Notes under the pieces: model-generated | Database searches by the model: none | What the model was told of the DNA's origin: nothing | What the model saw: the letters and a program-made list of their open reading frames with translations, nothing else | In this document: one piece after another, positions 1,255 through 23,881 of the stretch | How the letters are laid out: every line of letters begins with the position of its first letter | Numbering within the stretch: the stretch's first letter is position 1 | Position numbers and translations under genes: made by a program | Assembly (NCBI RefSeq): GCF_000733865.1 | Contig: NZ_JPOK01000005.1 | Coordinates: forward strand, 124,001-188,000 | Direction: 5' to 3' | Length of the DNA stretch: 64,000 nt | Source: Mycoplasma buteonis | Lineage (GTDB): Bacteria > Bacillota_I > Bacilli_A > Mycoplasmatales > Metamycoplasmataceae

Positions 1255-4200
1255 TTATTTTTTAGATACTTTCACAATTATTCCTAATGTAGTTAACATT
1301 CCGACTGTGGCTAATGATAAGACTAATCATCATGGTCATTTTAGAATTTCATCTTTAGCTTCAGTAGGTTGCATTTTATGAATTGCACTTTGAATTACAT
1401 TTGAGAATGATTTTATGTTTTTATTTAAATCATTTAAGCGATCTATAACAGTTTTTGGTGCGGTATTATTAGCTTTTTGTGAAACCGCAATAATATCAAA
1501 GTATTTAGCGACTTTTAGTTCTAAAGTAGGTAAATCATATCCTGTGAAATCGTTTTTATGTAAGTCTTTAACAGTTTTCTCAAAAATAGATTGATCATTA
1601 TTTAAGATTGCATCAACTAGTTTGAGCTCAGCATCAGCTAAAACTAAATTACGTTTTAATGAAAATGTATCACGAGCAATATCTGTAAGAATATCTGATC
1701 TTAGTGAAGGATTTTTAACTGCTTCTTTTCCTTTTTCTATTGCAGATAGTAAATTATTTTTAGCTTGATTGTATGATTCTTCATCATTTATATCTGCATT
1801 CTTGTAATTATTTAGTGCATCAGCTAAACGATGTGCGTTAACAATTGTGTTTAACGCATTTTGATAATTATCTTTAGGTAATGAGAAATTATCTAGTTGA
1901 TTAATTAAGTTTTCTAAATCAGAAATTTTATCTTCACTGTAATTACGTGTTAAATCATGAATTTTAGCTAAAATTTGTGAAACTAAATCATCAGCAGCTT
2001 TAGCATTAGCTAAAATTTTATCAATTTCTTCTAATTTTTTAGCATCACTTGGGTTAGAATTATCAAAGTTAACATTTTTAATGTCATTAATAAATTTGTT
2101 TTTTTCTTCATCAGTTAAATTGCTTAATTGATTAATTTGATCTATTCTATCTTGCTTTTGTTTGTTAATTAATTTAGCGTTTTCAATGATTTGTTTTGCA
2201 ATGTCATCATTACCATTTTTAATTTTTTGTTTAGCTTCTTCTTTTTCCTTATCACTTAAATTTGGTAAGCGATCAATGGCGTCAAAATATAATTCCATTT
2301 TTGCATCAACTAACTCTTTTAAAATCTTGTTAACTTGTTCTGATTTTAAAGCAGGAGTTTCATATTCACTTGGTGCAATGTTATTTAGTAATTTTTGTGC
2401 ATCACTAAGTGCTTTATCGTATATTGCTTTTGCTCTATCGCTTGCTTCTTGATATAAATTACTATTCACAACTTCTAAAGCTTTATTAACTGCTTGTTCT
2501 AATTCTGCCATTGCATTGTCTGTCTTTTTAGCTTCATCTAAAATATCTGCAGCACTATCAGTATTTTCGCGATATTCATCTAAATTATGATTAATGATTT
2601 CTGATTTAAAGTAGTCTTTTTGGGCTTGATTTAAATGTTCTAAAGCAAGCATTTGATCAACTAATACTTTTTTATCTTCGTTATTTTTACTTGCATTAGC
2701 AAAAATTTCATCTGCTTGATTTTGATTTTTAGCTTGAGCAATTTGGTTTTTGTAGTTAGTTTTTTCTTCGTCTGATAAATATGATAATTGATCAATTTTA
2801 TCGTTGATTTTTACTTTATCTTCATCAGTTAAGTTGCCTTTTAAGTAAGGTCCGTATTTTTTAATTGCACTTGCAATAATGTTTGATTTGTCTGCTTGTG
2901 TAACAGGAGAAAGTTTAGCATATTCATTTTCTGAAAGACCTTTATTAGCATCGCTTGTATTTGTTAACTCAGCGTACTTGCTGTTAGCTAAAGCTTCTTT
3001 TAATTGATCGTATGAATGATCATTAACAGCGTTTAATAGCCCAATAGCTTCAGCAATTTTGTTATCAAATTCTTCTTGCGATGTATTTGTAGCATTAATA
3101 ATTGCATCAACAATTTTAACTTCAGCATTGGCTTGGTTTTGAATTTTATTTACTTGTGGTTCAACTTCTGTTAATAAAGTTTTTAGCTTTGGATCAGCTA
3201 ATTCTGTATCGATGTTAATGCTTTGCTTTGCTTTATCAAGCTTTTGCCCTAAATCTTTAACAGCTTCTTTTAATTGATTTTCTAAAGTTGCAAAACCATC
3301 GTTTAATACATTAGCTTTTTTGTACTTATCAAGAAGATCTTCTACTTTATCTTTTTCTTTTAGTAGTTCAAACATATCTTTTTGTTGAGAGTAGTCTTTT
3401 TGGTTTGCAATTGGTCCATTTTCATTTTGATTAATTAAATTATTAATTTTCTTAATCAATTCTGCTTTTTTATCTTTGTTTTCTTCTTTTGATAACTGAG
3501 ATAAAGCGTTATCGATGTTATCGTGATTTGCACTATCTAGAATTTTGTTAATTGCTTTTAATGCTTCAGCATCGTTTTTGTCATTATTTTCAAATTCTAC
3601 TTTTTGAATTTTTTCTTTTAATTTTTCTTTTTCTTCGGGAGTTAAAAACTCTAGTTTTTCTATTTTGGCAATTGCATCACCTTTAATTTTATTAATTGCA
3701 ATAATATTATTAATTACATCATTTAAATTATTATTTGAATCACCTAATTTTTCTTTAGCTTTATTTTTTTCATTTTCAGTAATATTAGGTAAATTATCTA
3801 TACCGTCTTTTAATGTGTTAAGTTTATCTAATTTAGTTATACTAATTAAATGTTCAACTTGTTCTTTATTTCAATTTGCTGTTGTTGGTTTACTTACAGC
3901 TGGTTTTATTGTTTGATCATCTCAATTAGTATTTGCTAAATCAGGAGTAGGGTTTTCTTTATTTTTACTTTTATCATTAACTAAGCTACTTGCGGCTTCA
4001 ATATCAGCTTCATAATGCTTTTTATTTACATTTTCATTGGTTAATTCAGTATAAATAGGAAGCTTTTTGATTGCTGCACTATCAGTAATTAATTCTTTAA
4101 GATTACCCATTGCAGTGTTAAGGTTTTGAGCATCAGTTTTAACTTTTTCGGTTGCTGAACCTGTGTATGTTTTATCAGCAGCTGGTTCGATATTTGAAGC

Positions 4201-7200
4201 AATAATATTTTCTTTAACTTGTGTTAGCTGAGGACCATTTAAGTTAGGGTATGTTTTTGCTAAATTGTCAATTAATTTTTTCTTATTATTATCTTTTGTA
4301 GTTGCTTTTGCTACTATTTCTTCTAACTCAGTACCAGCTTGTGGATAAGTTTTTGTTACTCCATCAGTGGCTTGTTCTAATTTATCGATTTGTTCTAAAT
4401 ACTCTTGTTTTTCTTCAGGTGAAAGATATTTTTTATCGTTAATAGCTTTTTTAGCATCTTGAATTTTTTGTTTGAAATTTTGTTTTGTTGTATTGTAGAA
4501 ACCAGTAATTTTTGCTGTTCTTTCTTCTGATTTTTCATTAGTAATAGGATTAAGAACTTTGTATTTAATTACTAAGTTATGATCATCTGAATTTTCAGTA
4601 TCAGCTTGTACATCAGTTACTTGTCAATCTTGTCAAAAATCTACTTTTTGTTCATTTTCACCATCACGTTGCGGCATAACATTGGCATTATTATTTCCAC
4701 CTGTAGTTTGTAATGTATGTGTAACTTTTTTCATTAATTCTTCTGATTTTGCCACTTCAGAAGCTTTGACATTTTCTTTGTCAGTATCTTGATCGCCGTA
4801 TTTTCAAACTACATCAGCACCATTAAGAGCTAATCTAGCTTTTTTAGTGTTTTGAATTAGATCACTTATATTTTTTAAATTTTGTGAAGCAGTAGCTTGC
4901 AATTTACCATGCTGATCATTATTCTTAAATTGATTTGAACTTTTATCGTAACCTAAGTATTCTAAAGTCTTATTAATTAAATCATCATAAGCTGTTTTTA
5001 CGTATGTTTTTTCTGTTTGAGATGCATCTTCACCAGGTTTAGGAGCATCGGCTAATAGGTAAACAGTTTTATCTTTTAATGATTTTAAGAATAAATCTGC
5101 TTCAGTGCTTAAGTCTTTTGCTAATTCATTTTTAATTGTCGCTTCTTGAACGATACGGTCAACAAAATCACCAGAAGTTGTTTTTGAATTATTGATTTTT
5201 TGTTTATATTCATTAATTAATTCAGGACTTAAATATTCTAATTGACCTAATTTTTTTTGTGCTTCATTTTTTGAATTTTGAAGTTCTTCAGTTTCTTTTT
5301 CGTTTATTTTATTATTAAGCTCTTCTAAAATTTTATTTCATTGTGGAATGATGTCGGCTCTTTCAGGTTTTATAGCTACAAAATTTGATTGACTTTGATT
5401 TTTTGGTAATTCATTATTTGTTAATTTATGAACATCAGCCATTTTAGCTTTTAAGTCTTTTTCTAATTGATTAACTCTTTCATTAATTGTATTTCAAAGC
5501 TTATCTTTTTTGGTTAAACCACTTTGCAATTTAGCACCAAATTCATTCATAAATTTATCTTTATATGCTTTAAAATATTGACTAACATTATTATCTTCGG
5601 TTAATTTTAATAATCCTGTTTGATCATTATCAATGCCATTATTTAAATCATCCATGATAGGAGTTTTATCACTAATATTTTTTGTGATAGTATTTTTAAG
5701 TTCAATTAACTCAGCAAGAGTTGCTGATGGTTTTTGTTTTAATGACCCTCATTTAGCTAAATCTTGAATATAAACAGATTTTGTACTTTCGAATGTTTTT
5801 TTGTAAGTTTTTAAGTCATCTAAGTAATTTACTCATTTATCTAAATATTCCGCATTAAATGCACTATTTGTAAATCTAGCAATTGATTGATTTACATTAG
5901 GATCAATATTTTCTCTGTAATTATCTTGTTGTACATCATGAAAGTTTTTAACATAATCATTAATTTGTTGCACGAAATCATCTTTAGCAAATGCAAATGG
6001 TTCTACAAATGGACTGTAAGTATCAAAACCAACACCTTCACCACTATTAATAGAACTTAAAGAAGCTTGAATAGCTGAATCCATTAAAGTAGCTTGTGGT
6101 AAGTCTTTAATATATTTTTTATATGCTAAAGTTGAAGATGAACCACGTCAATCTGAACTAACACCACCCATTCAGAAAGAAGGTGTTTGAAGAGCTATTT
6201 TGTTATTGTTTTCTAAACTTCTTCAAGGCTCATTTTCTCAAACTTTATCATTTGAATAAGCGTATTTAGCAATTAATTGATTAAGCTTTTCATATGATTG
6301 TTCTGCAGTGTGTAATAATTTTGTATCTTCTGGATTGAAGTCATTTGAAATTTGATTTTTTCTTATAAATTCAGGGATTTCTGCTTCGATTTCTTTGAAT
6401 GCTTGATAAAAATCAGAATAATATTTGTTAAATTGATTGTATTGCTCATCTGTTAAAGTTACACCATCTTTAACTGTTTTTAAACTAAGTTTTAGTAAAG
6501 CGTTTATAGGTATTAGTTTCTGAGAATCAAATGCTTTCATCCCAAATTGTGATTGAGTAGTTACACTGTTTTCACTAGCTCATTTTTTTGCTTCTTCAAT
6601 AGTTCATTTATCTTTTGGATCACCATCAAATGATGCTGAAAGCAATGTATACAATGCATTAACTCTTTCGAAGTATGGATAAACGTAAATTGCATCATAT
6701 AACTTTCTATAAGATTTGTATGCATCAGCCATTGAATCTCTAAATTGATTAAAATCAATAGATTTAAGATCTAATGAATTTACATTATCTCTTTTTGATT
6801 TGGCTTCATCAAATAGTTTTTTAATAGCAGGGACTTGTTCATAACTTTTTGCTTTTTCTAAAAAATTATCCACTAATGTTATAAAAGTAGTTTTTTGATC
6901 ATTAAAATATGAAACTAAGTCTCCCATTTGGTTTACTAATGATTTTGATTTTGAATCAGTTTTTTTGTGAGGTAAGTAATTTAAAGCTTGCACTTGGTCA
7001 ATAAATTTTTGAGCATTAATATCAACTTTTCGATATGCTTCGTGAGTTTGCTCACTTAATTCTTTTGATTGTGCTTTAGTTGAAAAATTAGAATTTATTA
7101 TAAATTTTCTTGCATTATGATCGTAAGTAAAAGTTGTAGGACTTGGTTGTTCTCATCTTGTAGCAACACTTCCGTCTGGGTTTGCGTATGTAACTTTTCA

Positions 7201-8412
7201 GACATACTTGTTATTTACTTGATCTGCTTTTGTTAAATCTTCATCGAATGGTAAGTCAAATGTAAATCTAGATTTAACTGTATTGTTATGTGTTTTATCT
7301 ATAAATTCATTATCTCTAAGTGTTGGAATGATTAGCATTGCTTCCAAGCAATTAGGTTCTAGTGATGAATTACATTCTGTTGTATTTTTACGTTTAAATA
7401 ATTCATAATTTAATCCAGGTTCAGTAACTTTATTTTGATTATTATAATTATTAGTAATTTCAGCTGTTACACTTAATAATGGATTTCTTGTAAATTCGTT
7501 AACTGCTAAACGTTGAAAAATGTGTGATCTAGAACCTGTTGGCATATCTCATGATTTAAATGCACCACCAACAAATGATTTACTTGGTGTTTGATATGCT
7601 TTTTCTTTTAATGTTAAATCTTTTAAATCATTTCTAGGTTTGGTGCTAAAACGAAATTCAAACTTCTTATCTCTCATTCAAGAATCTGTTTTATACTGAA
7701 CTTTTAATACGCTACCAATATTAGAATGTCATTCTCTATGTGTTTTGAAATATTTACCTGTTAGTAAATCTAATCCTGTATCGTAACTAGCTATTAAATT
7801 ATAGTTACGTTGTTTTTGTTCATCTGTGCTAGGGTTACCGTATGTTGTTAATCCGATAAGTCTTTCGTTATCATCAATAGTAGTTAGAACATTTTCATTT
7901 TCTTGTTCTGCTCTTCTTTTGTCTCCTATTGGTATTGATATTGTTTTAATTTTTGTTACACCATCTGGTTTAAAAATGTCTAGTCAGATTGTGTCTTTAT
8001 CTACTACTAAATCGTTAGAAATAAAAATTGCAAAATATGGATCACTTGTTCAGTAATCATATCCTGATCCACCTCTGTCTTTTAATGGTTTTGAATTAAA
8101 TTTAATAGTTCATTCTTGCTTATCAGATTCAATAGAGTTTGTTAAAGTTGTGATAACTTGTCTTTCAGCAGTATCTTTTGCTTGTTCTCCCTCTTGTGGA
8201 TGGCTTCCTTCACCACCACCATAAACTGGTGCTTCTGCAATTCATGTTGGTGTATTTTTTGTATAAGTTGTATAAAGAGATGTGACAAATTCATCTCTTT
8301 GGAACTCTGAATTATTTTGATTTGTGGTTGCTGCCGATACCATTACAACTGGTGAAATTCCAGCAATAATTGCAGTGCCTAATATTTGTTTGTGATATTT
8401 TTTTAACCTCAT
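1255..8412 (-). CDS. Giant GA-module surface protein (2385 aa)
   Basis: One unbroken frame, with several TGA tryptophan codons, runs from ATG 8410-8412 (ribosome site AAGGAG) to TAA 1255-1257. The N-terminus is a signal peptide (basic MRLKKYHK start, hydrophobic core, then VSAA). The C-terminus has a membrane helix after WPWW and a basic tail, VKVSKK. From about residue 1050 to 2120 there are at least eight helical modules with the pattern L-x-x-L-(S/T)-x-E-E-K, for example LSNLTDEEKNKF and LPNLSDKEKEEA. This pattern is that of GA (albumin-binding-type) modules and DUF1542-like repeats of cell-wall adhesins. The N-terminal ~900 residues are not recognised. Likely role: a cell-surface adhesin or host-protein binder, inferred from the modules. 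It is alone in its transcript. What it binds cannot be read from the sequence. Confidence 0.85.
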
Positions 8413-12542: not shown

Positions 12543-12548
12543 TATAAT
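12543..12548 (+). promoter_or_regulatory. -10 box of the lysine-riboswitch/pepF-opp transcript
   Basis: A perfect TATAAT. The expected start of transcription is near 12555, about 135 bases before the riboswitch aptamer. No convincing -35 box is seen, which is common in mycoplasmas. Confidence 0.6.
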
Positions 12549-12554
12549 TGTGAC

Positions 12555-12638
12555 ATGAATCAATTAACAAACAAGAAAGCAATTATTAAGAACTGAACCA
12601 TTCGTTTTAATATTATTATTAAAATGTGTTTTTAGTGT
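12555..12638 (+). CDS. Possible leader peptide (27 aa)
   Basis: ATG 12555 lies at the predicted transcription start. It opens a 27-codon frame (MNQLTNKKAIIKNWTIRFN...) ending at a TAG before the riboswitch. It has no ribosome site, so it could only be translated as a leaderless message. It contains several lysine codons, which is also ordinary for AT-rich DNA. It may be chance. Confidence 0.2.
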
Positions 12639-12654
12639 TGCTATCTGTTTTATT

Positions 12655-12686
12655 AAACATAAGCAGATAGAAATCTGTTTATGTTT
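12655..12686 (+). other. Hairpin immediately 5' of the lysine aptamer
   Basis: A 14-base stem (AAACATAAGCAGAT with ATCTGTTTATGTTT, one G-U pair) and a four-base loop end three bases before the aptamer's P1. An upstream CTATCTG (12641-12647) can pair with CAGATAG inside the hairpin, so an alternative fold exists. It has no U tail and is probably not a terminator. Confidence 0.6.
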
Positions 12687-12688
12687 AA

Positions 12689-12850
12689 GCTATAGAGGAG
12701 CTTTTAAAATAAGTAAGTAATGGAGCAGGCATGCTAAGAAGTTACTGAAAGGTTATAAAAGCCGAAACATTTAAAGTGGCAGCTTTAAGTGTTGGTAGAA
12801 AAACATAAAAGATTTCTACTCTTTGGTTATTAAACCATTGGTGCTATAGA
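12689..12850 (+). ncRNA. Lysine riboswitch aptamer (L-box)
   Basis: The order of conserved blocks matches the lysine riboswitch family. P1 is CTATAG (12690-12695) pairing with CTATAG (12844-12849). Then come GAGGAGC, AGTAA...TTACT (P2), GAAAGG, and GCCGAAAC. P3 is ACATTTAAAG/CTTTAAGTGT, followed by TTGG. P4 is TAGAAA/TTTCTA and P5 is TGGTT/AACCA, with GGTG just before the 3' strand of P1. The B. subtilis lysC element has the same blocks in the same order. It precedes pepF-opp, so it should sense lysine and control peptide cleavage and import. The match was made by eye, without a covariance model. Confidence 0.88.
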
Positions 12851-12928
12851 ATTACAAATTTTGATTAACTTATCTAATTTATTGATATTAATTAAATCTT
12901 TGTAGTTTTATAGACTACAAAGATTTTT
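12851..12928 (+). terminator. Riboswitch expression platform: antiterminator/terminator
   Basis: The terminator stem is AAATCTTTGTAGT (12894-12906) with ACTACAAAGATTT (12914-12926), followed by U's. The segment ATTACAAATTTTGATTAA (12851-12868), directly after P1, can instead pair with 12888-12906, which contains the 5' strand of the terminator. The two folds exclude each other, as expected for an attenuation switch that is OFF with lysine bound. Confidence 0.8.
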
Positions 12929-12944
12929 CTATTTTGAGGTTACC

Positions 12945-14795
12945 ATGAAAAGAAAAGTTCAAACTACTTATCAAAATTTAAATGATGAGAGTAAATTTGA
13001 TTTAGAGAGTATTTTAGAAAATTTAACTTTTGAGCAATTATTAGATGTGTTAAAAGAGCAAGCTGATAGTTTACTAAAGTTACAAGAAACTAAATACAAC
13101 TCTGCTAAGGATTTTAAATTAGAACTTTTAGGTAGAGCAAAAATGATGGAAACGTACAATAAATTAGAAACTTACACAAAAAATTGTGTTGCTGTTAGTT
13201 TAACTGATGGTAATGCTAAATTAATGCGTAAGCAATTTGAAAATCTTTGACAAAGTTTAAAAAATAAATTTGGTTCAGAAGATGCTGATTTTTATAAAAA
13301 CTTTTCAAAAATTCAACAATTACTTAGTGATGAAGAATTAAGTTTTTATAAATATGCATATCAAAAACAAAAACTAAAAAGTCAACATTTTTTAGGTTTA
13401 GAGGTTGAAGAGTATTTAAATAAAACCGCAGCTACTAAGCCTAATTATTATGAATTATTTAAAACTATTACCACTCTTGGATTGAGTTTTAAAGATATTC
13501 AAACCACAAAACAAAAAGTCAATCACGCAAGTAAAACATTGCTATTAAGTCCAAATGATGAAATCAGACAAGACTTTTATAAGAATTATTATGCTGGTTG
13601 ACTTAAGCAAAAAGAAGTTCTTAGTCAGTTGCTTTATGCACATTTTGAACAAAAATGTACAGAAGCAAAACTTCGTAAGTTTAAATATCCAATCGAACAA
13701 TTTTTATATTTAGATCAAGTTAATGAAGAAGTTCTAAAAAATTTATATCAAGCAGTAAAAAATCATAAGCATATTTTTGATGACTATCAAAAATATCATC
13801 GAAAGTTTTATAAAGCTAAATTTGGTAAAACTTGTAAAAATTGAGATTTAGAGCGAGAATTAATTACAAGTCCAATTAATTGAAATTTTAATTCAATGAA
13901 AGAAATGGCACACATTGCTCTCAAATCACTCGGCTTTAAGTATTCAAAGATCATTGAAAAAGCTTTTTTTGAAAAATGAATTGATTATGAGCAAGCTAGT
14001 GACAAAGTCAAAGGTGCTTATACAAATATTAATTCATACGGAATTAATAAAAAATTAATTTTAATGAATAACACTAATACTTTAAGAAGTGTGGAAACAT
14101 TAGTTCATGAATTAGGACACGCTGCTCATAGTTTTTTAGTAGATTCACAAGAAAATTATTATCACTCTGAATATCCAATTTTACTTGCTGAAGTAGCTTC
14201 AATGTTTAATGAAATGATTTTATATGATACATTAATGCTTCGTGCTGCTTCACTTGAAGAACATTTTTACTACTTAGATAAATTAATTAAAAACATTCAA
14301 AATACCATTTTTAAACAAACCATGTGATCTAATTATGAATATAACTTATACCAAGCTGTGTGAGATGGAAAAGCGAATAATTCATATGAATACTTACGAA
14401 AATTATATTGAGAAAATTATTGCGAATATCATGTTAATCCAAAACTAGAAAACGAATTATTAGTTCCTGCATTTTCAGTTTCGCATTATTACTATGATTT
14501 TTACATGTATAAATATGCAATAGGCCAATTTGTTGCTATTTATTTTTACTCAATTTATAAACATAATCCCAAAAATTTTAATAAACATTATATTGATGAT
14601 TTTTTAACCTTAAGTGGAAGTGACTTTCCGTTAAAAATTTTAAAAAGCGTGGGTGTGGATTTATTAAATAAAGATTTTTACCTCCCAGTTTTTGATTACA
14701 TTGAAAACTTAGTTAGACAATACCAAAAAATAGGAAAAAAATTATTTTTAAAAAGACAAACCAAAAAAGGAGAAAAAAATGAAAAGATTAAATAA
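12945..14795 (+). CDS. pepF: M3-family oligoendopeptidase F
   Basis: A 616-residue cytosolic zinc peptidase that cuts short peptides. The HExxH zinc motif is visible as HELGH at residues 388-392, with the following AAHSF, and the downstream acidic ligand lies in the EYPILLAEVAS segment typical of M3 peptidases. It starts at ATG 12945 after GAGGT and overlaps oppA by 17 bases. It is the first gene behind the lysine riboswitch and shares a message with the peptide importer, so imported peptides would be degraded by a co-regulated enzyme. Length is normal for PepF. Confidence 0.94.
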
Positions 14796-17736
14796 ATTAT
14801 TGTTCTTATCTAGTTCTTTAGTTGCTACCGCAACACCACTTGTTGTTTTATCAGCTGCCTGTGATTTTTCAGGCGATTCAAAAGCACCAACAAAAACAGA
14901 TGGAAACGGAACAAATGGTTCAAACGATGCAAATGGAAATTCAAATACCAATCCAAAAACAAGCAATGTTAACACAAACCCTAATAGAGCATTATATGAA
15001 AATGTAGTAAATCAAAGAGTAGAATACGATTCAAATCTTTCAGCATTTGCTGCCAAAGGAATTTACCGTAATGAAGTTAACTCAGCTTACAAAAATACTG
15101 ATTTTTCATGAGATAGATCACTTATTTACGGTACAAAATCTTCAAGATTAGTAGATACAACAATCGGTAATATTATTGATTTAGAATCACTTGGAAAACC
15201 TAAATTTGAACAAAGAACTGAAATTGTAGACCCAGTTACTTTACAACAAGAAGTTATTGTTAAGATTAAACAACCTTCATTAGAAAGATTTAGATTATCT
15301 CTTGCTTCATCAGTAGTTGTTACACTTAACGATGGTACTGAGAAAGTGTATGATTCAGATGAAGCTGATGTAGCACCACAGCCAGATGATGGTCAATTTT
15401 TCAAGAAAGTTGTTTACAAATTATCATCAAAAAACCCACGTTCAATTAACTCACCAGCTTTTGAAGAAGACTTACATAATGCAAAAAAAGTAAGTTTCAA
15501 AATTAGAACAGAAGCTCACTGAGTTGATAAAACAGGGAATGCTACAGAATATAATTTATCAGCTAATGACTTTTGAGCAAGTCTTGTTAGAACTAAAGCG
15601 TATGCTACAAATTACCGTCGTTCAAACGGTGGAACAAAAGATATTGATGTAATCATGAATAAAAATTCAACTCAAGAAAATTACTTAGAAGATAAAAGTT
15701 ATTCAAACGAATACTTATTCGACTTATTCAATATTGATTTTTCAAAAATGATTGATCAAGAAACTGCTGTAACTATTAAAGAAGATGGTTCAGAATACTT
15801 CAACATTGAGAAAAAAGATGCGTCACAGCCAGCACAATTTTCTGATGTAATTAAAATGCTTTATGAAAACCTTGAATTCGCTCCTGTGCCATATAAATAT
15901 ATCCAAGCACACAAAAATGAGCCAGTTGTAAAATCATACAAAACATTAACAGATTCAGAACAACAAGAATCATTAAATGCCGTTAAACAAGCTACTGGTC
16001 TTGCAAAAGAAGTTGGATTATATTGATATGGTTCAACTCTTGAAAATACACTTTTCAGTGGAAAATACTATCCAGTACCATATGATTCATCAGCTCAAGT
16101 TGATAAAGTTCTTCTTAACGAACACTATGCTCGCCAAGATTATCCACAAGATCCAACAGTAGTGCGTGTTTTTGAAAACCACTACGCAACTAGTCCACAA
16201 GCACCAGAGGTATGAAAGAAAACAGTCTTTAATTACTTTACTTCAGGTAACCAATCAACAGTTTCTCTTTCAGAATTAGAACCTCAAGATTTACAAGTAT
16301 TACAAAATAACATTGAAAAATATGGATTATCATATTCAGAAACAAAACAAAATACAAGATTACAAAAATCAGTATTTAATACTGTTTTCCCACTTTTTGC
16401 TTCAGGTGGAAAAGAAAGTTACTACACATTTAACGATGCAACTTCATTACTTTTATATGGAGCTAAATTAAAAGATTTAGCAACAGCTAAAGCTACAACA
16501 GTAGATACACTTTTAGGTAATGCAGCTCAATTTAGAACAATGTTAACAGCAGCAATTAACTGAAATGCAGTTGTTGATGATTTCTATGGTTCAGGTACAC
16601 CAAGAAAACCATGATTAGTACCAGTTGCTCCAGATTCATTAATTAAAGCAGATCCTAATGGTACTGATACAACAGTTAAAGAAAATACACCAAGAGGAAA
16701 TCTTTCAGAATTACACAAATTATTTGTTCTTGATGCTAAAACACACCAAAAAGTTGATTTAGGAAACGGACTTGGAACAACAATTTCACTTGAACAAAGT
16801 AGTTCTGTTGGAAAAACTGCTGACGAAAAATACCAATCAGCTGCTTTTGCAAAATTACAAGATTTAATGACACAGTTCTTAGATGATTTTTATAGAGAAA
16901 ATAATTTAGCTGAAACTGAAAAAATCGTAATGAATTTTGGTTCTAGATATACAAATGCTAATGCAAATGAAAAATTAGCTTATGAACAAATTGTTAAAAC
17001 TTGAAAATCTATTGATAAAAAAGGAAGAATTGATGTAACTTTTTCAATTTCACTTCCGAAATTTGAAGCAGATGATAACAGAAACTGAGGTTACTTCTGA
17101 CAAACAAATAGATTAACAACAATTGCAGGTTGAGGATACGATTATGATGGAATTACATCAGGATTAGATGGATATACTGGTCAAATTAGTGGTGTAACTA
17201 TTGCACTTGGAATGCTCGCTCAAGACGAAGCAAAAATGAATCAATATAAAGACACTCTTCCTCAAACAATTAAGTTAGCAAAAGCATTTAAAGCTTATGT
17301 TGAAAAATTAGAAAGAGAAGATAATATTCAACTTTCAGTTCCATTAAGTGTGTGAAGTGAAATTAATAACAAAAACGTTTCATCAATTACAGAGGTTTTA
17401 GGTACTGCAAAATGAGATGCAACTGCACAAAAATTTGTTTCATGAACACCAGATGATGGTAAAACAGGTATTGATTTTGGAACACTTTCAGCTAAATTCT
17501 GACTTGAATATGGAAATAGAAAAGATGTCACAAAACTCGATTTAATTCACTTAACTTCAGAAATTTCACAATTAGTTGGTGTTGCTCTTGGAATTAATTT
17601 TGGAGTAGCAACAAGCTCATTAAACCAATACTTTATTAACCCTAGTTACTTAAACGCTACATCATCTTCAGATGTTTACGATTATACAAATACTAAATTA
17701 GGTCAACCATACCACAAAGAAGCAACTCAAAAATAG
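14779..17736 (+). CDS. oppA: Oligopeptide ABC transporter substrate-binding lipoprotein
   Basis: A 985-residue exported lipoprotein. The N-terminus has a basic start, a hydrophobic core and the lipobox LSAAC, then a low-complexity linker rich in G, N, S and T (residues about 35-70). The rest is a large SBP family 5-type domain, judged mainly from length and its place before oppB. Mycoplasma OppA proteins are about this long, and in M. hominis the homologue also has ecto-ATPase activity; I did not identify that site here. The start ATG 14779 has AAAGGAG upstream, inside the pepF coding end. A perfect hairpin separates it from oppB. Confidence 0.88.
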
Positions 17737-17791: not shown

Positions 17792-17815
17792 TTGCATTTA
17801 CAGAAAGGAGTTATT

Positions 17816-18976
17816 TTGCTCAAATATATTTCGCAACGTATTTTCTTTGCTTTATTAACACTGATTATTATTATTTTTATTGTGTTTATGTCAGTTGCAA
17901 TTTTTTCTGATAACCCATTTGCTAAGCAAGCCCTTAATACAAATGGTTCAGGAGCAGATGCAGGAGAAGCGACAGCACAGAAAGTTCAAGAATTATTCAA
18001 CAAATCAGTTGCTTATCATTTAGTCCCTGATGTACCTTATAAAGAGGTTGAAAGGACTTGATTTAATTTAAAATTAAATCCATTTATTCGTATGGCGTAC
18101 TGATTTAAAGATGTCTTCGATAGTAAGCAACCATTTGGTCTTCCATATGACGAACAGATTTTAAGTGTTAGTGGTGCAAAAACTATCCCTGAATATTTCT
18201 TTAAGTTCTTAAAATTCTCAATTATTATTACTTTACCAAGCTTTTTACTTAGTGCAATTATTGGTATTAGTTTAGGAATTGTTGCAGGTTACAAACGTGG
18301 TAGCTACTTTGACGTAATTGTAAACTTTTTCTCATTACTTTTTGTAGCACTTCCGAGTTTCGTGTTAGCACCAATTTTAATTTCTATTTTACTTAAAGTA
18401 GGAATTCAACCCTTATTTTTAAACCCATCCGATGCTAATGTAATTCAAGCAAAAGGTTGAAATCAAGTTATTTTATCATGATTACCACCTATTTTAATTA
18501 TTGTACTTGGTTCACTTTCAGGTTACATTTCATATACCAGAAACCAAGTTGTTTCTGTACTTACTTCAAATTACGTGCTAATTGCTCGTTCAAAAGGATT
18601 AAGTACTACTCAAATTTTCTTCAAATATGTTTTTAGAAATATTTCAATTCCATTAGCTGCTGCTATTATTCCTTCGTATATTGGATTGCTATCAGGAGGA
18701 ATTATTATTGAAACATATTGAAGAATTCCTGGTACTTCTACAGTACTAACACAAGCATTCCCAAATGGTGAAATTAATTTAATTATGTTTTCTACTGTGC
18801 TTTTCACCTTTTTAGGTTTAATGACAAGTATTTTAGTTGATATTGTATTTGTTTTCCTTGATCCAAGAATTAAATACGGTTCAGCTTCAAAATATAATTA
18901 CAAGTTATTATTTACATCATATTTACAACGTCAAAAACAATTTAAAGAATATCAACTTGATAGAAAGGAAAAGTAG
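17816..18976 (+). CDS. oppB: Oligopeptide ABC transporter permease OppB
   Basis: A 386-residue inner component of the peptide importer. An N-terminal membrane helix (ISQRIFFALLTLIIIIFIVF) is followed by an extracytoplasmic segment and about five further helices. The coupling-loop region NYVLIARSKGLS is the EAA-type motif of permeases. The start is TTG 17816, chosen because AAAGGAG lies six bases upstream. The upstream in-frame TTG at 17792 lies before that ribosome site. It ends one base before the oppC start. Confidence 0.92.
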
Positions 18977-20362
18977 ATGAGTTCAAAAGAATTTAATAAA
19001 AAATATGGTTTAAATCTTTCAGACAAATCTACTGATTTGTTTAAAAGAGTTGTAAATAACCAAAAAAACTTTGTTAACGTTGGTGGTAAACCAAAGAAAA
19101 TGGCTGCTGAGGTTTTTAAAAGATACTTCACTAACTGATCAGTTGTATTTTTTACAGTAATTTTCCTAGTAGTTCTTCTTTTATCACTTATTGTTACTTT
19201 TTCATCAACACATGATGCAAATCATCCAGTCTCATCATCAACTTGATAAAAAATTCCAGAATGAGATCCTAGCGCTAATAGTTTTAAAGTGGATGCAAAT
19301 GGAAAATTAATTTTAAAAGATACTCTTGGAACAGGAATTGTTAAATCACTTCCACCTGCATATAATCCATGAGTTAATAGAGAAATTTTCTTTCCAGGTC
19401 AACAATTCCAAGATAATGTCGAAGTTCTCAGTAAAGAATATCATGGATACGTTTGAAATAATTTTATTTTAAATCCTTCTTCAAATGTGCCTGACTCAAG
19501 CTTGTCAATTAAGCAAGATCCAGCAACTAAAGTAATTTATGTTAATACAGTTAGATTCTTAAATGCTATTAATACTTATACTTTATTACTTGCTTCAAAA
19601 TTACCTACTAGTGCTACTGAACAACAAGTTTCAGAAGCTGTGAATTTATTACATAAACTTAATGGGACAAATGTATTTTATCCAAATTCAATTTTAGGTA
19701 CAAATAGTGCTGGTATTGATGTTTGAACTTCATCATGAATTGGAACATGAAATGCAATTAGATTAGCATTAATTGTTGCTACTTTACAAACAATCATCGG
19801 TGTTGCTGTCGGTTCATATTTAGGATTCCATGTTGGTTCTTGAATTGATACAGTAATTATGAGATTGATTGAAATTTTTGTAGCTCCACCAGGATTAATT
19901 TGATTATTACTTTTTGCTTCTATTTTTGGAACAAGCGATTGAACATTAATTTTTGCTTTAGTGTTTACAGGTTGAACAGGTTCAGTAGGTGGAACAAGAA
20001 TGTTTATTATTACTGTTAAAGATTCTGAGTTTATTACTGCAAGTAAATCTGTTGGTGCCTCAAAAATGCGTTTAATTTACAAACATGCCTTACCTGCAAT
20101 TATTGGAAAAATTGCCAATAGCTATGTTGCAAGAATACCAGGAATTATTTTAAGTGTTTCATCACTTGCGTTCCTTGGTTTCTTCAAAGGAGATACTGCT
20201 AACCTTGGTGCTCTTCTCTCATCAGCAGCTGGTGAAGCAGGACAAAACTTCTGAATCTTATTATTACCATCATTAATATTACTTTCAATATCGGTTTCAC
20301 TACACTTTATGGCTCTTGGAATTCACGATGCTCTTGATCCAAAAGTTATTAGAGGAAAATAA
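18977..20362 (+). pseudogene. oppC: Oligopeptide permease OppC with in-frame TAA
   Basis: The frame starts at ATG 18977 directly after the oppB stop and would give about 460 residues. It contains an N-terminal helix (residues about 55-75), a long extracytoplasmic part, then the permease core with the loop ITASKSVGASKMRL and the end IHDALDPKVI. At codon 91 (19247-19249) a TAA follows a TGA tryptophan: ...SSST-W-stop-KIPEWDP. The same frame continues intact on both sides, so a single base change (for example TAT or TAC to TAA) explains it. Either the gene is recently inactivated, the stop is bypassed, translation re-initiates, or it is a sequencing error. Confidence 0.85.
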
Positions 20363-20370
20363 GGAGATTT

Positions 20371-21423
20371 ATGGAAAAAGAAACTTTATTAAGAGTTCGC
20401 AATTTAAAAGTTAACTTTAGAACTGGACGCGGAAAATTCATTAATATTGTCCGTGGTGTTGATTTAAATATCAAACGTGGACAAATTGTTGGATTAGTTG
20501 GTGAATCAGGTTCAGGGAAAACAGTTACAAGTAAATCTCTTATTAATATTAATGAAAATGCAATTATTACTGCTGATGAAATGGTAATTAACAATATAGA
20601 TTTAACACAGTCAACTAAAGAAAAATTTTGACAAACAATTCGTGGAAACGAAATTGGATACATTCCGCAAGATCCACTTACTTCACTAAATCCAACACGT
20701 AAAATTGGAAAGCAACTTTTAGATGCTTTAAATACTAACAAAGATTGAAAAAACAAAAAGTATACAGAAAAACGTGAATACTTAGTTGGTTTATTAACTA
20801 AGTTTGGAATTAGAAATGCCTCACAAGTTTTCGATATGTATCCACATACTCTTAGTGGTGGTATGAAGCAACGTGTCGTAATTACAATGGTAGTTGCTCT
20901 CAAGCCAAGTTTAATTATTGCTGATGAACCTACCACAGCACTTGATCCAACAGTTCAAGCTTCTGTACTTGCACTTTTTGAAGACATTAGACAACAAATG
21001 GGAATTTCAATTATTTTAATTAGTCATAATATTTCAGTTGTTGCAAAATTCTGTGATTATATTTATGTAATGTATGCAGGAAAAATTGTTGAAAAAGGAA
21101 CTAAAAAAGATATTTTCACTCAACCAGCCCATCCATATTCATGAGCTTTAATTTCAGCTATTCCAGAAAATAAAGAAGATCGTTTATATTCAATTAAAGG
21201 AACTCCACCAGATATGTCTAACTTACCTTTAGGAGACGCTTTTGCTCCTAGAAATGATTACGCAATGGAAATTGATTTTATTAAAGAACCACCACTTTTC
21301 CAAATTAGTGAAACTCATGCCGCAGCTACTTGATTGCTTCACCCTGAAGCTCCACAAGTTGAGTTACCAGAAGAATTAAAACAAAGATTAGAAAACTTTA
21401 GAAAGGTATTCGATGAAAAATAA
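20371..21423 (+). CDS. oppD: Oligopeptide ABC transporter ATPase OppD
   Basis: A 350-residue ATPase of the peptide importer. Walker A is GESGSGKT (residues about 46-53), the Q-loop is [13 protein letters not shown], the signature is LSGGMKQR, and Walker B is [12 protein letters not shown], followed by the H-loop ISHN. The C-terminal part (HPYSWALISAIP onward) is the oligopeptide-transporter extension. It begins after AAGGAG eight bases past oppC and overlaps oppF by 11 bases. Confidence 0.95.
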
Positions 21424-23881
21424 TCAAAAAGAACAACCTATTTTAGAATTATCTGGTTTAAAAAAGTATTTTGTTAATGGTAGCAGAATTAATAAAGCTG
21501 TTGACAACGTATCTTTTGAAGTTAAAAAAGGTGAAATTGTTGGGTTAATTGGTGAATCAGGTTCAGGAAAAACAACTGTTGGTCGTTCATTACTTAGATT
21601 ATATGATGACTTTAGTGGATTTGTCACACTGCAAGATCAAATTATTTCTGGTAAAAGAATTTCACGTAAACGTGCAAAATTTATGCACAAAAATATTCAA
21701 ATGATTTTTCAAGACCCAATGGCTGCCCTTAACGGTCAAAATAACATTTTCTCAATTTTAAAAGAACCTCTTGTAGTTAATAAAATTATTAAGAATCGTA
21801 TTAATGATATTAAAGTGGATTGAAAGAATGTTACTGACAATTTTCACTATACTTTTTTAGAACAAGCTTTAAAACTCAAACTCGAAAATCTCCAAATCGC
21901 TCTAAAACTTTATGGTCCTTTTATTAAAAAGTGACAAGCTGTTAAATTGGAAGAATTTACTGCTGAGCAATCACTTGACGATCAATTTAATTCTTATTTT
22001 GCCTTTCTTGAAGAAAAAAGCAAAATTAATTCAATTATTATTAATAACCTTTATAAAAATTCAGAAAAATTAATTAGTTTATTTGAAGCTAAACAAAGTG
22101 ATTACCGTAATCAAAAAATTGATTTTGATGAAGTTGAATTAGCTAATGCTCAAAAAGAATATAAATTCCAAAAACTCCTTAGATTCCATACAAAAGAATA
22201 TTTAGATGCAAAGCAATTACTTAAAGAGACATATAAAAACCATAAAAATAACTGTGCAGAGCTAGCAGAACTATCAAGTGTAGGGAAAAACGCTCTAAAA
22301 AACTTTAAATATGAATTTAAAAATGAAGCTGGAATTCACAAAAATGAAGCTTTTAGTTCTTCTGATTTAGATTATTTTTTCCACCAATACAAACTTTATA
22401 AAATTAATAATCAAATTAAAAAAGAGTTCCACAAACGTTATCAAACTCTTAATTTCTTAAGTTTAAGTGACTTAAAAACTTTAATGCAAGAAATTCAAGA
22501 CTATGGAAAGAACTTTTATGAAAATAAACTAAAAGTTGATCAAAGACAGAAAGCGTCAATTAAAGAAATTAAAAAGATTGTAAAAGAAGAGTTTAAATTT
22601 GATTTTTCAAAATATGAAACCAGTTCTTTAAAAACAAAAAAAGAATTATCTAATAAAAATATGCATTCTCGTAAGCAGTTAATATCTACTCTTAAAAAAG
22701 CTATTAAAGAGTTTGCTAAATTACCAAAATCAAATAAAGAAAATTTAGAAGCTGCTAAAAAGAACTTAGAAAAAACAAAAGAAGTCTTCGATCAAGAACT
22801 TGATAAGTTTATTGTTGAGTATCAAAAGAGAATTTCTGGTTATCGAGAAGAAATTGCAAAATTAGAAGCTGAAAGAACAGAAATATTAAATATTGAAAAA
22901 GAAGAAACTAAAAAATTCTTTGAAATCCACCGTAAATTTAATGATTTCTTTAAAAGAGATGTCATTAAAGTTGCTCAAAATAAATACGAAGAAGCTAAAA
23001 GAAACTTTAAATTATCTGATAGTAAAGCTCAAGATGATAAAACACAAAAATCTATAAAAAGAGCTAAAAATAAATTAGAAAATCTTAAAACACAATACAA
23101 ACAAAAACAAATTGATTTAAAAATTTACAATACAAATATTATTGATAAAGTTAATAGCAATAAATCATTTGATATTGAACTTAAAATTGTCGAAAAAGAT
23201 ATAAATAATATTTATTTACTTCTTGGTATTTCTGATTTTGATCAAAAAGTTTTTGGTTCAAAAATTAAAGGAATCTTCCAAAGTTTAACCTCAGTTTACC
23301 GTAATAAGAGATTAAATCACTTATTTACACAGACAACAATTTATAAAGCCCTTGAAGATGTTGGGTTACTTAAACAATTTGCTTATCGTTATCCACATGA
23401 ATTTTCAGGTGGTCAAAGACAAAGAATTGTTATTGCTCGCGCTTTAATTACACAGCCAAGCGTTATTGTTGCTGATGAACCAATTGCATCACTTGATATC
23501 TCTATCCAAGCACAGGTTGTCAATCTTTTAAAAGATTTATGTAAAGAAAAAAATATTGGAATGGTATTTATTGCTCACGATTTATCAATGATTGAATATA
23601 TTGCTGATCGTGTTCAAATTATGCATTTAGGTAAAATTGTTGAATCAGGTGTAACTGAAAAAATTTATCAAAATCCAGTTCACCCATATACAAAAAACCT
23701 TTTCAAAGCAATTCCGAAAATTTCGAATGCAAATGAGAAATTTAAAGATGTATCATTTGAAACTTCTTACTTACTTGAACAACAATATCCTAATATTCCA
23801 AGTGTGCATGAAATAGAACCACAACACTGTGTTTATGGTACTGATGAACAAATTGCTAAATGAACAAATAAAAATAATTAG
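21413..23881 (+). CDS. oppF: Oligopeptide ABC transporter ATPase OppF with long insertion
   Basis: An 822-residue ATPase. Walker A GESGSGKT is at residues 47-54 and the Q-loop FQDPMAALNG near 110. The signature FSGGQRQR comes only at about residue 662, then Walker B VIVADEPIASLD and the H-loop AHDLS. Between Q-loop and signature lie some 540 residues, far more than in OppD. They are charged, K/E-rich and helical (coiled-coil-like, about 120-620). Long insertions in OppF are known in mycoplasmas, and their role is unclear. The last codons read TGA (Trp) then TNKNN and TAG. It is the final gene of the pepF-opp unit. Confidence 0.93.

Follow-up and report, generated by a model that had tools for sequence, protein, structure and literature searches.

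A lysine riboswitch and a predicted leader-peptide attenuator in the mRNA leader of the pepF-opp operon of Mycoplasma buteonis and related mycoplasmas

The pepF-opp locus and its leader

The window, the 64,000-nucleotide stretch of Mycoplasma buteonis DNA analysed here, contains the six genes of a peptide-use operon, all on the same strand and in the order pepF-oppABCDF. They are directly preceded by the regulatory element that a preliminary description of the sequence had placed there. The features of the leader and of the operon are the following (positions are those of the window):

12543..12548, plus strand: -10 box TATAAT, 6 nt before the leader ATG, implying a near-leaderless mRNA (from the sequence)
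12555..12635, plus strand: leader open reading frame (ORF) of 26 codons, MNQLTNKKAIIKNWTIRFNIIIKMCF* (from the sequence and its recurrence in the genus)
12643..12650, plus strand: segment 1 (ATCTGTTT), starting 8 nt after the leader stop, predicted to pair with segment 2
12655..12668, plus strand: segment 2 (AAACATAAGCAGAT), predicted to pair with segment 1 or segment 3
12673..12686, plus strand: segment 3 (ATCTGTTTATGTTT), predicted to pair with segment 2 or with the 3' side of aptamer helix P4
12685..12854, plus strand: lysine riboswitch aptamer, P1 to P5 (RF00168, 75.4 bits)
12844..12868, plus strand: 5' strand of the antiterminator, including the P1 3' strand (folding, co-variation)
12888..12913, plus strand: 3' strand of the antiterminator, overlapping the 5' arm and loop of the terminator (folding, co-variation)
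12894..12926, plus strand: intrinsic terminator hairpin of 15 pairs followed by a U-rich tail (fold z -6.8)
12945..14795, plus strand: pepF, oligoendopeptidase F of the M3 family (PF01432; best NCBIfam match TIGR00181, below its cut-off)
14779..17736, plus strand: oppA, substrate-binding lipoprotein of the OppA family (NF045850, 669 bits)
17792..18976, plus strand: oppB, permease (PF00528; best NCBIfam match OppB)
18977..20362, plus strand: oppC, permease frame with an in-frame TAA at 19247-19249, compared with the uninterrupted frames of relatives
20371..21423, plus strand: oppD, ATPase (PF00005, PF08352)
21413..23881, plus strand: oppF, ATPase with a long insertion in its ATPase domain (PF00005 in two stretches, PF08352)

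The TAA in oppC lies at codon 91, whereas relatives have one uninterrupted frame of 453-471 codons; either the permease gene is broken in this strain or the assembly contains an error at this point. The insertion in OppF spans roughly residues 110-630, inside the ATPase domain. Elsewhere in the window, positions 1255-8412 of the minus strand encode a protein of 2385 residues with no NCBIfam match.

Searches for lysA and dapB gave no match in the genome, and the same searches were positive in 12-13 of 14 control genomes. This supports the earlier suggestion that the organism lacks lysine synthesis. Two amino acid permeases are encoded elsewhere in the genome. At 9.9%, lysine is the commonest amino acid of the proteins encoded here, so that its level would be a reasonable measure of supply.

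The lysine riboswitch, its expression platform and its targets

The aptamer matches RF00168 over the full length of the model (positions 1-182) with a score of 75.4 bits, against a gathering score of 30 bits, and with an E value of 7e-18 over the 64-kb window. The core blocks AGAGG.GC, AGUA, GAAAGG, GCCGAA, UGG and GCU are all present, so that the conserved blocks and the P1-P5 pairing recognised in the preliminary description hold. Among 45 aligned loci of the genus, 36 of the 47 predicted aptamer pairs show compensatory change, with both sides changed and the pair kept. Two candidate loop-loop pairs might join L2 and L3; at one of them C-G is replaced by U-A in 4 of the 45 loci. The element is a genuine member of the known lysine-riboswitch class, and lysine binding is predicted for it. 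An Rfam search found no known leader family upstream of the aptamer.

One pair at the floor of the binding pocket is C-G and not G-A: the equivalent of the G141-A162 pair of the Thermotoga maritima lysine riboswitch structure (PMC3764141) is C12821-G12840 here. This J4/5 change, together with targets in peptide import and cleavage and not in lysine synthesis, could suggest that the aptamer has drifted towards another ligand such as a lysine-containing dipeptide, ornithine or arginine. Such a drift is very improbable, as the remaining conserved core blocks are unchanged and the C-G form is a natural subtype. Every one of the 29 sampled Bacilli loci with a downstream amino-acid-type ABC ATPase gene is of this CUC subtype, to which the Mycoplasmopsis aptamers also belong, and none of the 21 CUG loci in that sample has such a gene. 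The element thus has its subtype in common with the riboswitches of amino-acid ABC transporters.

A terminator scan of the leader found a single terminator, with 0.0 expected in shuffled sequences, in agreement with the fold drawn in the preliminary description. An equivalent hairpin is present at 52 of the 53 riboswitch loci of the genus. The antiterminator proposed there (12851-12868 with 12888-12906) also exists, but it was drawn too short, leaving out the P1 3' strand at 12844-12849. The full helix (12844-12868 with 12888-12913) has a folding energy of -21.1 kcal/mol (z -6.3). As 12844-12849 belongs both to P1 and to this helix, the aptamer and the antiterminator compete for the same strand, which couples the helix to ligand binding. 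In 52 loci of the genus the antiterminator pairing has a mean energy of -15.2 kcal/mol with the terminator of the same locus versus -8.5 kcal/mol with those of other loci, and the energy of the P1-containing antiterminator lies 4.4 standard deviations below shuffles. In addition, the P1 3' strand reads CTAAAT and not CTATAG in four loci, and their terminator loop is altered correspondingly. Since the P1 3' strand is shared, the predicted logic is an ordinary one, in which bound lysine would close P1, allow the terminator to form and turn the operon off; we infer this OFF direction from the pairing.

At least one RF00168 match was obtained in 42 of 61 genomes of the same genus, Mycoplasmopsis, and none in 38 genomes from other families of the order. 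Four relatives that share a motif of the aptamer are M. felis, M. leonicaptivi and two lung isolates named Mycoplasma sp. In the 19 genomes of the genus without a match, a lax search gave nothing above 13.9 bits; the absence therefore looks real, and hidden or degenerate aptamers are ruled out at that level. A close oppD is kept in 17 of these 19 genomes.

As the preliminary description had led one to expect, the element recurs upstream of pepF or opp in related mycoplasmas: pepF and/or opp lie behind 44 of the 53 riboswitch loci. Of the 53, 23 have pepF as their first gene, with 18 of these running on into opp, and 21 have oppA. In one genome (G060) pepF and opp lie on different contigs with a riboswitch of their own at each, which argues that both genes are real targets. 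Five further loci precede PDxFFG surface proteins, three of them by way of a large lipoprotein gene and one alone; at the fifth the PDxFFG gene is followed by a putative lipoprotein gene and oppBCDF-like genes. This placement puts the PDxFFG proteins, whose function is unassigned, in a peptide-uptake regulon, and it is a first functional clue to them. Examples are L034:3235-14447 (minus strand), L079:232-4287 (minus strand) and L062:1771-7002 (plus strand).

Another three loci precede a pair of lipoprotein genes just before a riboswitch-controlled opp operon. At L060:2258-4996 (plus strand) the lipoprotein pair has its own lysine riboswitch and is followed by a second riboswitch and opp, a layout that recurs in G040 and G052. 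The remaining locus, L067:2067-3778 (plus strand), precedes an amino acid permease gene. Its aptamer is divergent (70.2 bits), neither a leader ORF nor a clear terminator accompanies it, and the genome has two more copies; this one was perhaps acquired separately.

Among 60 lysine riboswitch loci sampled from other Bacilli, no match to PepF, OppB or OppC was found downstream, in a scan that reached about 7 kb or the contig end. The first genes at the 59 loci scanned encode mostly amino-acid ABC binding proteins (29), followed by Na+/H+ antiporter-type transporters (10) and lysA-type decarboxylases (5). Within this sample the target set of the riboswitch is peculiar to Mycoplasmopsis. The element has the same full aptamer, P1-based antiterminator and intrinsic terminator as the RF00168 members that precede lysine transport and synthesis genes, but, unlike those members, it precedes pepF, opp and the genes of PDxFFG surface proteins and lipoproteins.

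A lysine riboswitch upstream of oligoendopeptidase F was already reported in 2017 in a few mycoplasmas (PMC5584792), and it is the same riboswitch with the same first gene in some species. The relevant passages of that paper call the genes putative lysine transporters with no mention of opp or oligopeptides, and describe neither an expression platform nor a leader peptide such as those found here. The pepF-opp riboswitch of the preliminary description is thus real, and its novelty is partial, as the link to pepF had been published. In the open-licence literature we found no other report of a link between a riboswitch and pepF or opp.

The leader reading frame and the three hairpin segments

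Position 12543, at which the preliminary description began its element, is the first base of the TATAAT box; the leader ORF and the hairpins that follow were not described there. At 44 of the 53 loci of the genus an ORF of 18-28 codons begins with an ATG that lies 6, 7 or 9 nt behind a -10 box, and among the 1152 other TATAAT sites of these loci only 7 are followed by such an ORF. By nucleotide shuffling, the chance that all 33 non-redundant leader frames would be open is about 1e-27 if the loci are taken as independent. A scan for sigma-70 promoters gave no excess over shuffles, and the TATAAT at 12543 is not among its predictions. Scan and inspection together indicate that the ORF is absent at about eight of the 53 loci: the three lipoprotein-pair loci, four of the pepF-only group and the amino acid permease locus.

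The leader peptides are alike in composition and not in sequence. They are rich in Ile (22%), Asn (15%), Met (7.9%), Arg (6.9%) and Thr (7.0%) and poor in Leu (2.9%), the corresponding values for the proteins of the window being 8.2, 7.9, 1.3, 2.8, 5.7 and 9.8%. In shuffled codons Met would reach 1.8% and Leu 12.7%. Between close pairs of leaders 10 codon changes are synonymous and 41 non-synonymous; there is thus no excess of synonymous change, and purifying selection on the peptide sequence was not found. The exact leader peptide is therefore not conserved, and selection acts at most on composition and placement. ANN codons make up 65% of leader codons versus 37% in genes. Sensing of the t6A tRNA modification was considered as the basis of this choice and rejected, since Arg CGU is frequent as well and Ser AGY shows no enrichment; an explanation by amino acids fits better.

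Downstream of the ORF, the hairpin of segments 2 and 3 (hairpin 2:3) has a predicted energy of -14.8 kcal/mol in the window (z -5.1). An automatic search for segment triples in 33 non-redundant loci gave a mean z of 4.2 and a combined p of about 1e-16, although the loci share ancestry and such p-values overstate their independence. About nine of the 33 leaders have no triple at p < 0.05. The segments remain complementary although their sequence varies by group (AATCTGTT, AAATCTATT, TTGTATTTG, TGTGTCTG or ACCTGC), an indication of RNA pairing. In many species the repeats form near-palindromes, for example AATCTGTT/AACAGATT/AATCTGTT, as would be expected if a protein repressor or activator bound them as a DNA operator. 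We nevertheless give an operator little credence: besides changing from group to group in this way, the repeats come after the inferred start site and immediately follow the stop of the ORF, and the last hairpin ends in a U-run in several groups.

One of these is the ACCTGC group, in which hairpin 2:3 ends in a U-run and resembles a terminator of its own. In the group of the window the hairpin has no U-run of its own, and segment 3 (GAAATCTGTTATG and variants) is complementary to the 3' side of aptamer helix P4. The predicted duplex reaches -19.1 kcal/mol in the window (z -5.8, with most of the group at -3 to -5), whereas complementarity of this kind is absent from the U-run group (z about -1 to +1.4). 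Species without the U-run mostly have a P4-complementary segment 3 and species with the U-run do not. As these loci share ancestry, the association between U-run absence and P4 complementarity is suggestive only. In folding calculations the mean probability of P1 is 0.29 for native leaders, 0.50 with segment 1 shuffled and 0.87 with segment 1 removed. An exposed segment 1 would thus disfavour the aptamer, by an effect that is partly generic; as a clean unfolding of P1 by segment 1 it was not retained, being only partly above the shuffled control.

Similar devices are found at opp loci without the riboswitch. A similar mini-ORF lies before oppA at 6 of 17 riboswitch-less opp loci of the genus, and after several of these mini-ORFs comes a segment-2/3 hairpin with a U-run. 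The family includes a sister genus without the lysine riboswitch, and there a leader ORF precedes opp in each of the three genomes examined (in L243, L244 and L245, about 5 kb upstream of oppD). In two of them the leader stop codon marks the beginning of perfect segment repeats of 12 and 14 nt, the third of which enters a T-rich stretch or U-run; the ORF in these two genomes is not near-leaderless. These three-segment attenuators offer a cleaner model for leader attenuation than the window does. In the automatic test several riboswitch-less and sister-genus loci scored no higher than the best shuffle, and segments are visible by eye in some. The leader device thus occurs also at opp loci that lack the riboswitch, and there it is probably older.

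These observations bear on the simplest alternative, that pepF-opp is regulated by an ordinary OFF lysine riboswitch alone, with the ORF and hairpins upstream of it there by chance. In its favour, aptamer and platform form a complete unit by themselves, the roughly eight loci without a leader ORF indicate that the riboswitch can stand alone, and the leader peptides lack a synonymous excess. We nevertheless consider this account unlikely in view of the fixed distance between the -10 box and the ORF (44/53 loci against 7/1152 controls), the three-segment complementarity that persists despite changed sequence and the similar devices at riboswitch-less opp loci.

The leader has features by which leader attenuators are recognised: an ORF in a fixed place, enriched codons and mutually exclusive hairpins by the ORF stop. 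A terminator with its own U-run is present in the ACCTGC group, at several riboswitch-less loci and in the sister genus, and it is absent from the group of the window. The device in the window is therefore described as attenuator-like and is not assigned to the canonical attenuators.

Predicted control of peptide feeding

We think it likely that pepF-opp is controlled by two attenuators in one mRNA leader, a leader peptide and a lysine riboswitch. This proposal builds on the observed parts with their order, conservation and co-variation, and it presumes that lysine is bound and acts in the OFF direction, that ribosomes translate the leader and stall on it, and that the two layers combine in some manner. 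The RNA would start at or just before the ATG of the 26-codon leader peptide, which is of the kind rich in Ile, Asn, Met, Arg and Thr. With plentiful aminoacyl-tRNAs the ribosome would reach the stop codon and cover segment 1, so that hairpin 2:3 forms; if it stalled earlier, segment 1 would be exposed and would compete. In species with a U-run on hairpin 2:3 the hairpin itself may terminate transcription, giving two attenuators in series, and in the group of the window it would probably act by leaving the lysine aptamer free to fold. Lysine binding would then close P1, withdraw 12844-12849 from the antiterminator and allow the terminator at 12894-12926 to form, turning pepF-opp off. At low lysine levels, pairing of 12844-12868 with 12888-12913 would form the antiterminator and the operon would be on.

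More tentatively, translation of the leader might directly gate the folding of the lysine aptamer, making the leader a two-input gate; we regard this extension as possible but doubtful. Upon stalling, segment 1 or a freed segment 3 would invade P1 or P4 and peptide import would be on whatever the lysine level. If so, the operon would be off only when general amino acid supply and lysine are both sufficient.

The preliminary description had proposed that general peptide feeding depends on one amino acid. With a second, probably translation-sensing attenuator in the same leader, one that is also present at opp without the riboswitch and has peptides with an excess of Ile, Asn, Met, Arg and Thr, this view is probably too simple. 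Peptide feeding is probably tied to several amino acids, with lysine acting by direct (predicted) binding.

In attenuation of the trp, his and ilv type, a short codon-biased ORF is followed by mutually exclusive hairpins. The leader described here resembles it in having a short ORF rich in particular codons, exclusive hairpins and, in several species, a terminator with a U-run. It differs in its three segments, its near-leaderless ORF, the mixed amino acids, the mycoplasma host and the riboswitch that follows. The mgtA leader of Salmonella combines Mg2+ sensing with the MgtL leader peptide, and here too one RNA joins a translated short ORF with a structural sensor, although ligand, genes and structures differ and no sequence relation is claimed. 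We found no report of leader-peptide attenuation in mycoplasmas in the open-licence literature, and the tandem of a lysine riboswitch and a leader-peptide attenuator appears to be new.

Mycoplasmas have few known regulators and do not make most amino acids. A lysine OFF-switch in tandem with a leader-peptide sensor on the main peptide importer would be a specific, genus-wide and testable answer to how they control peptide feeding.
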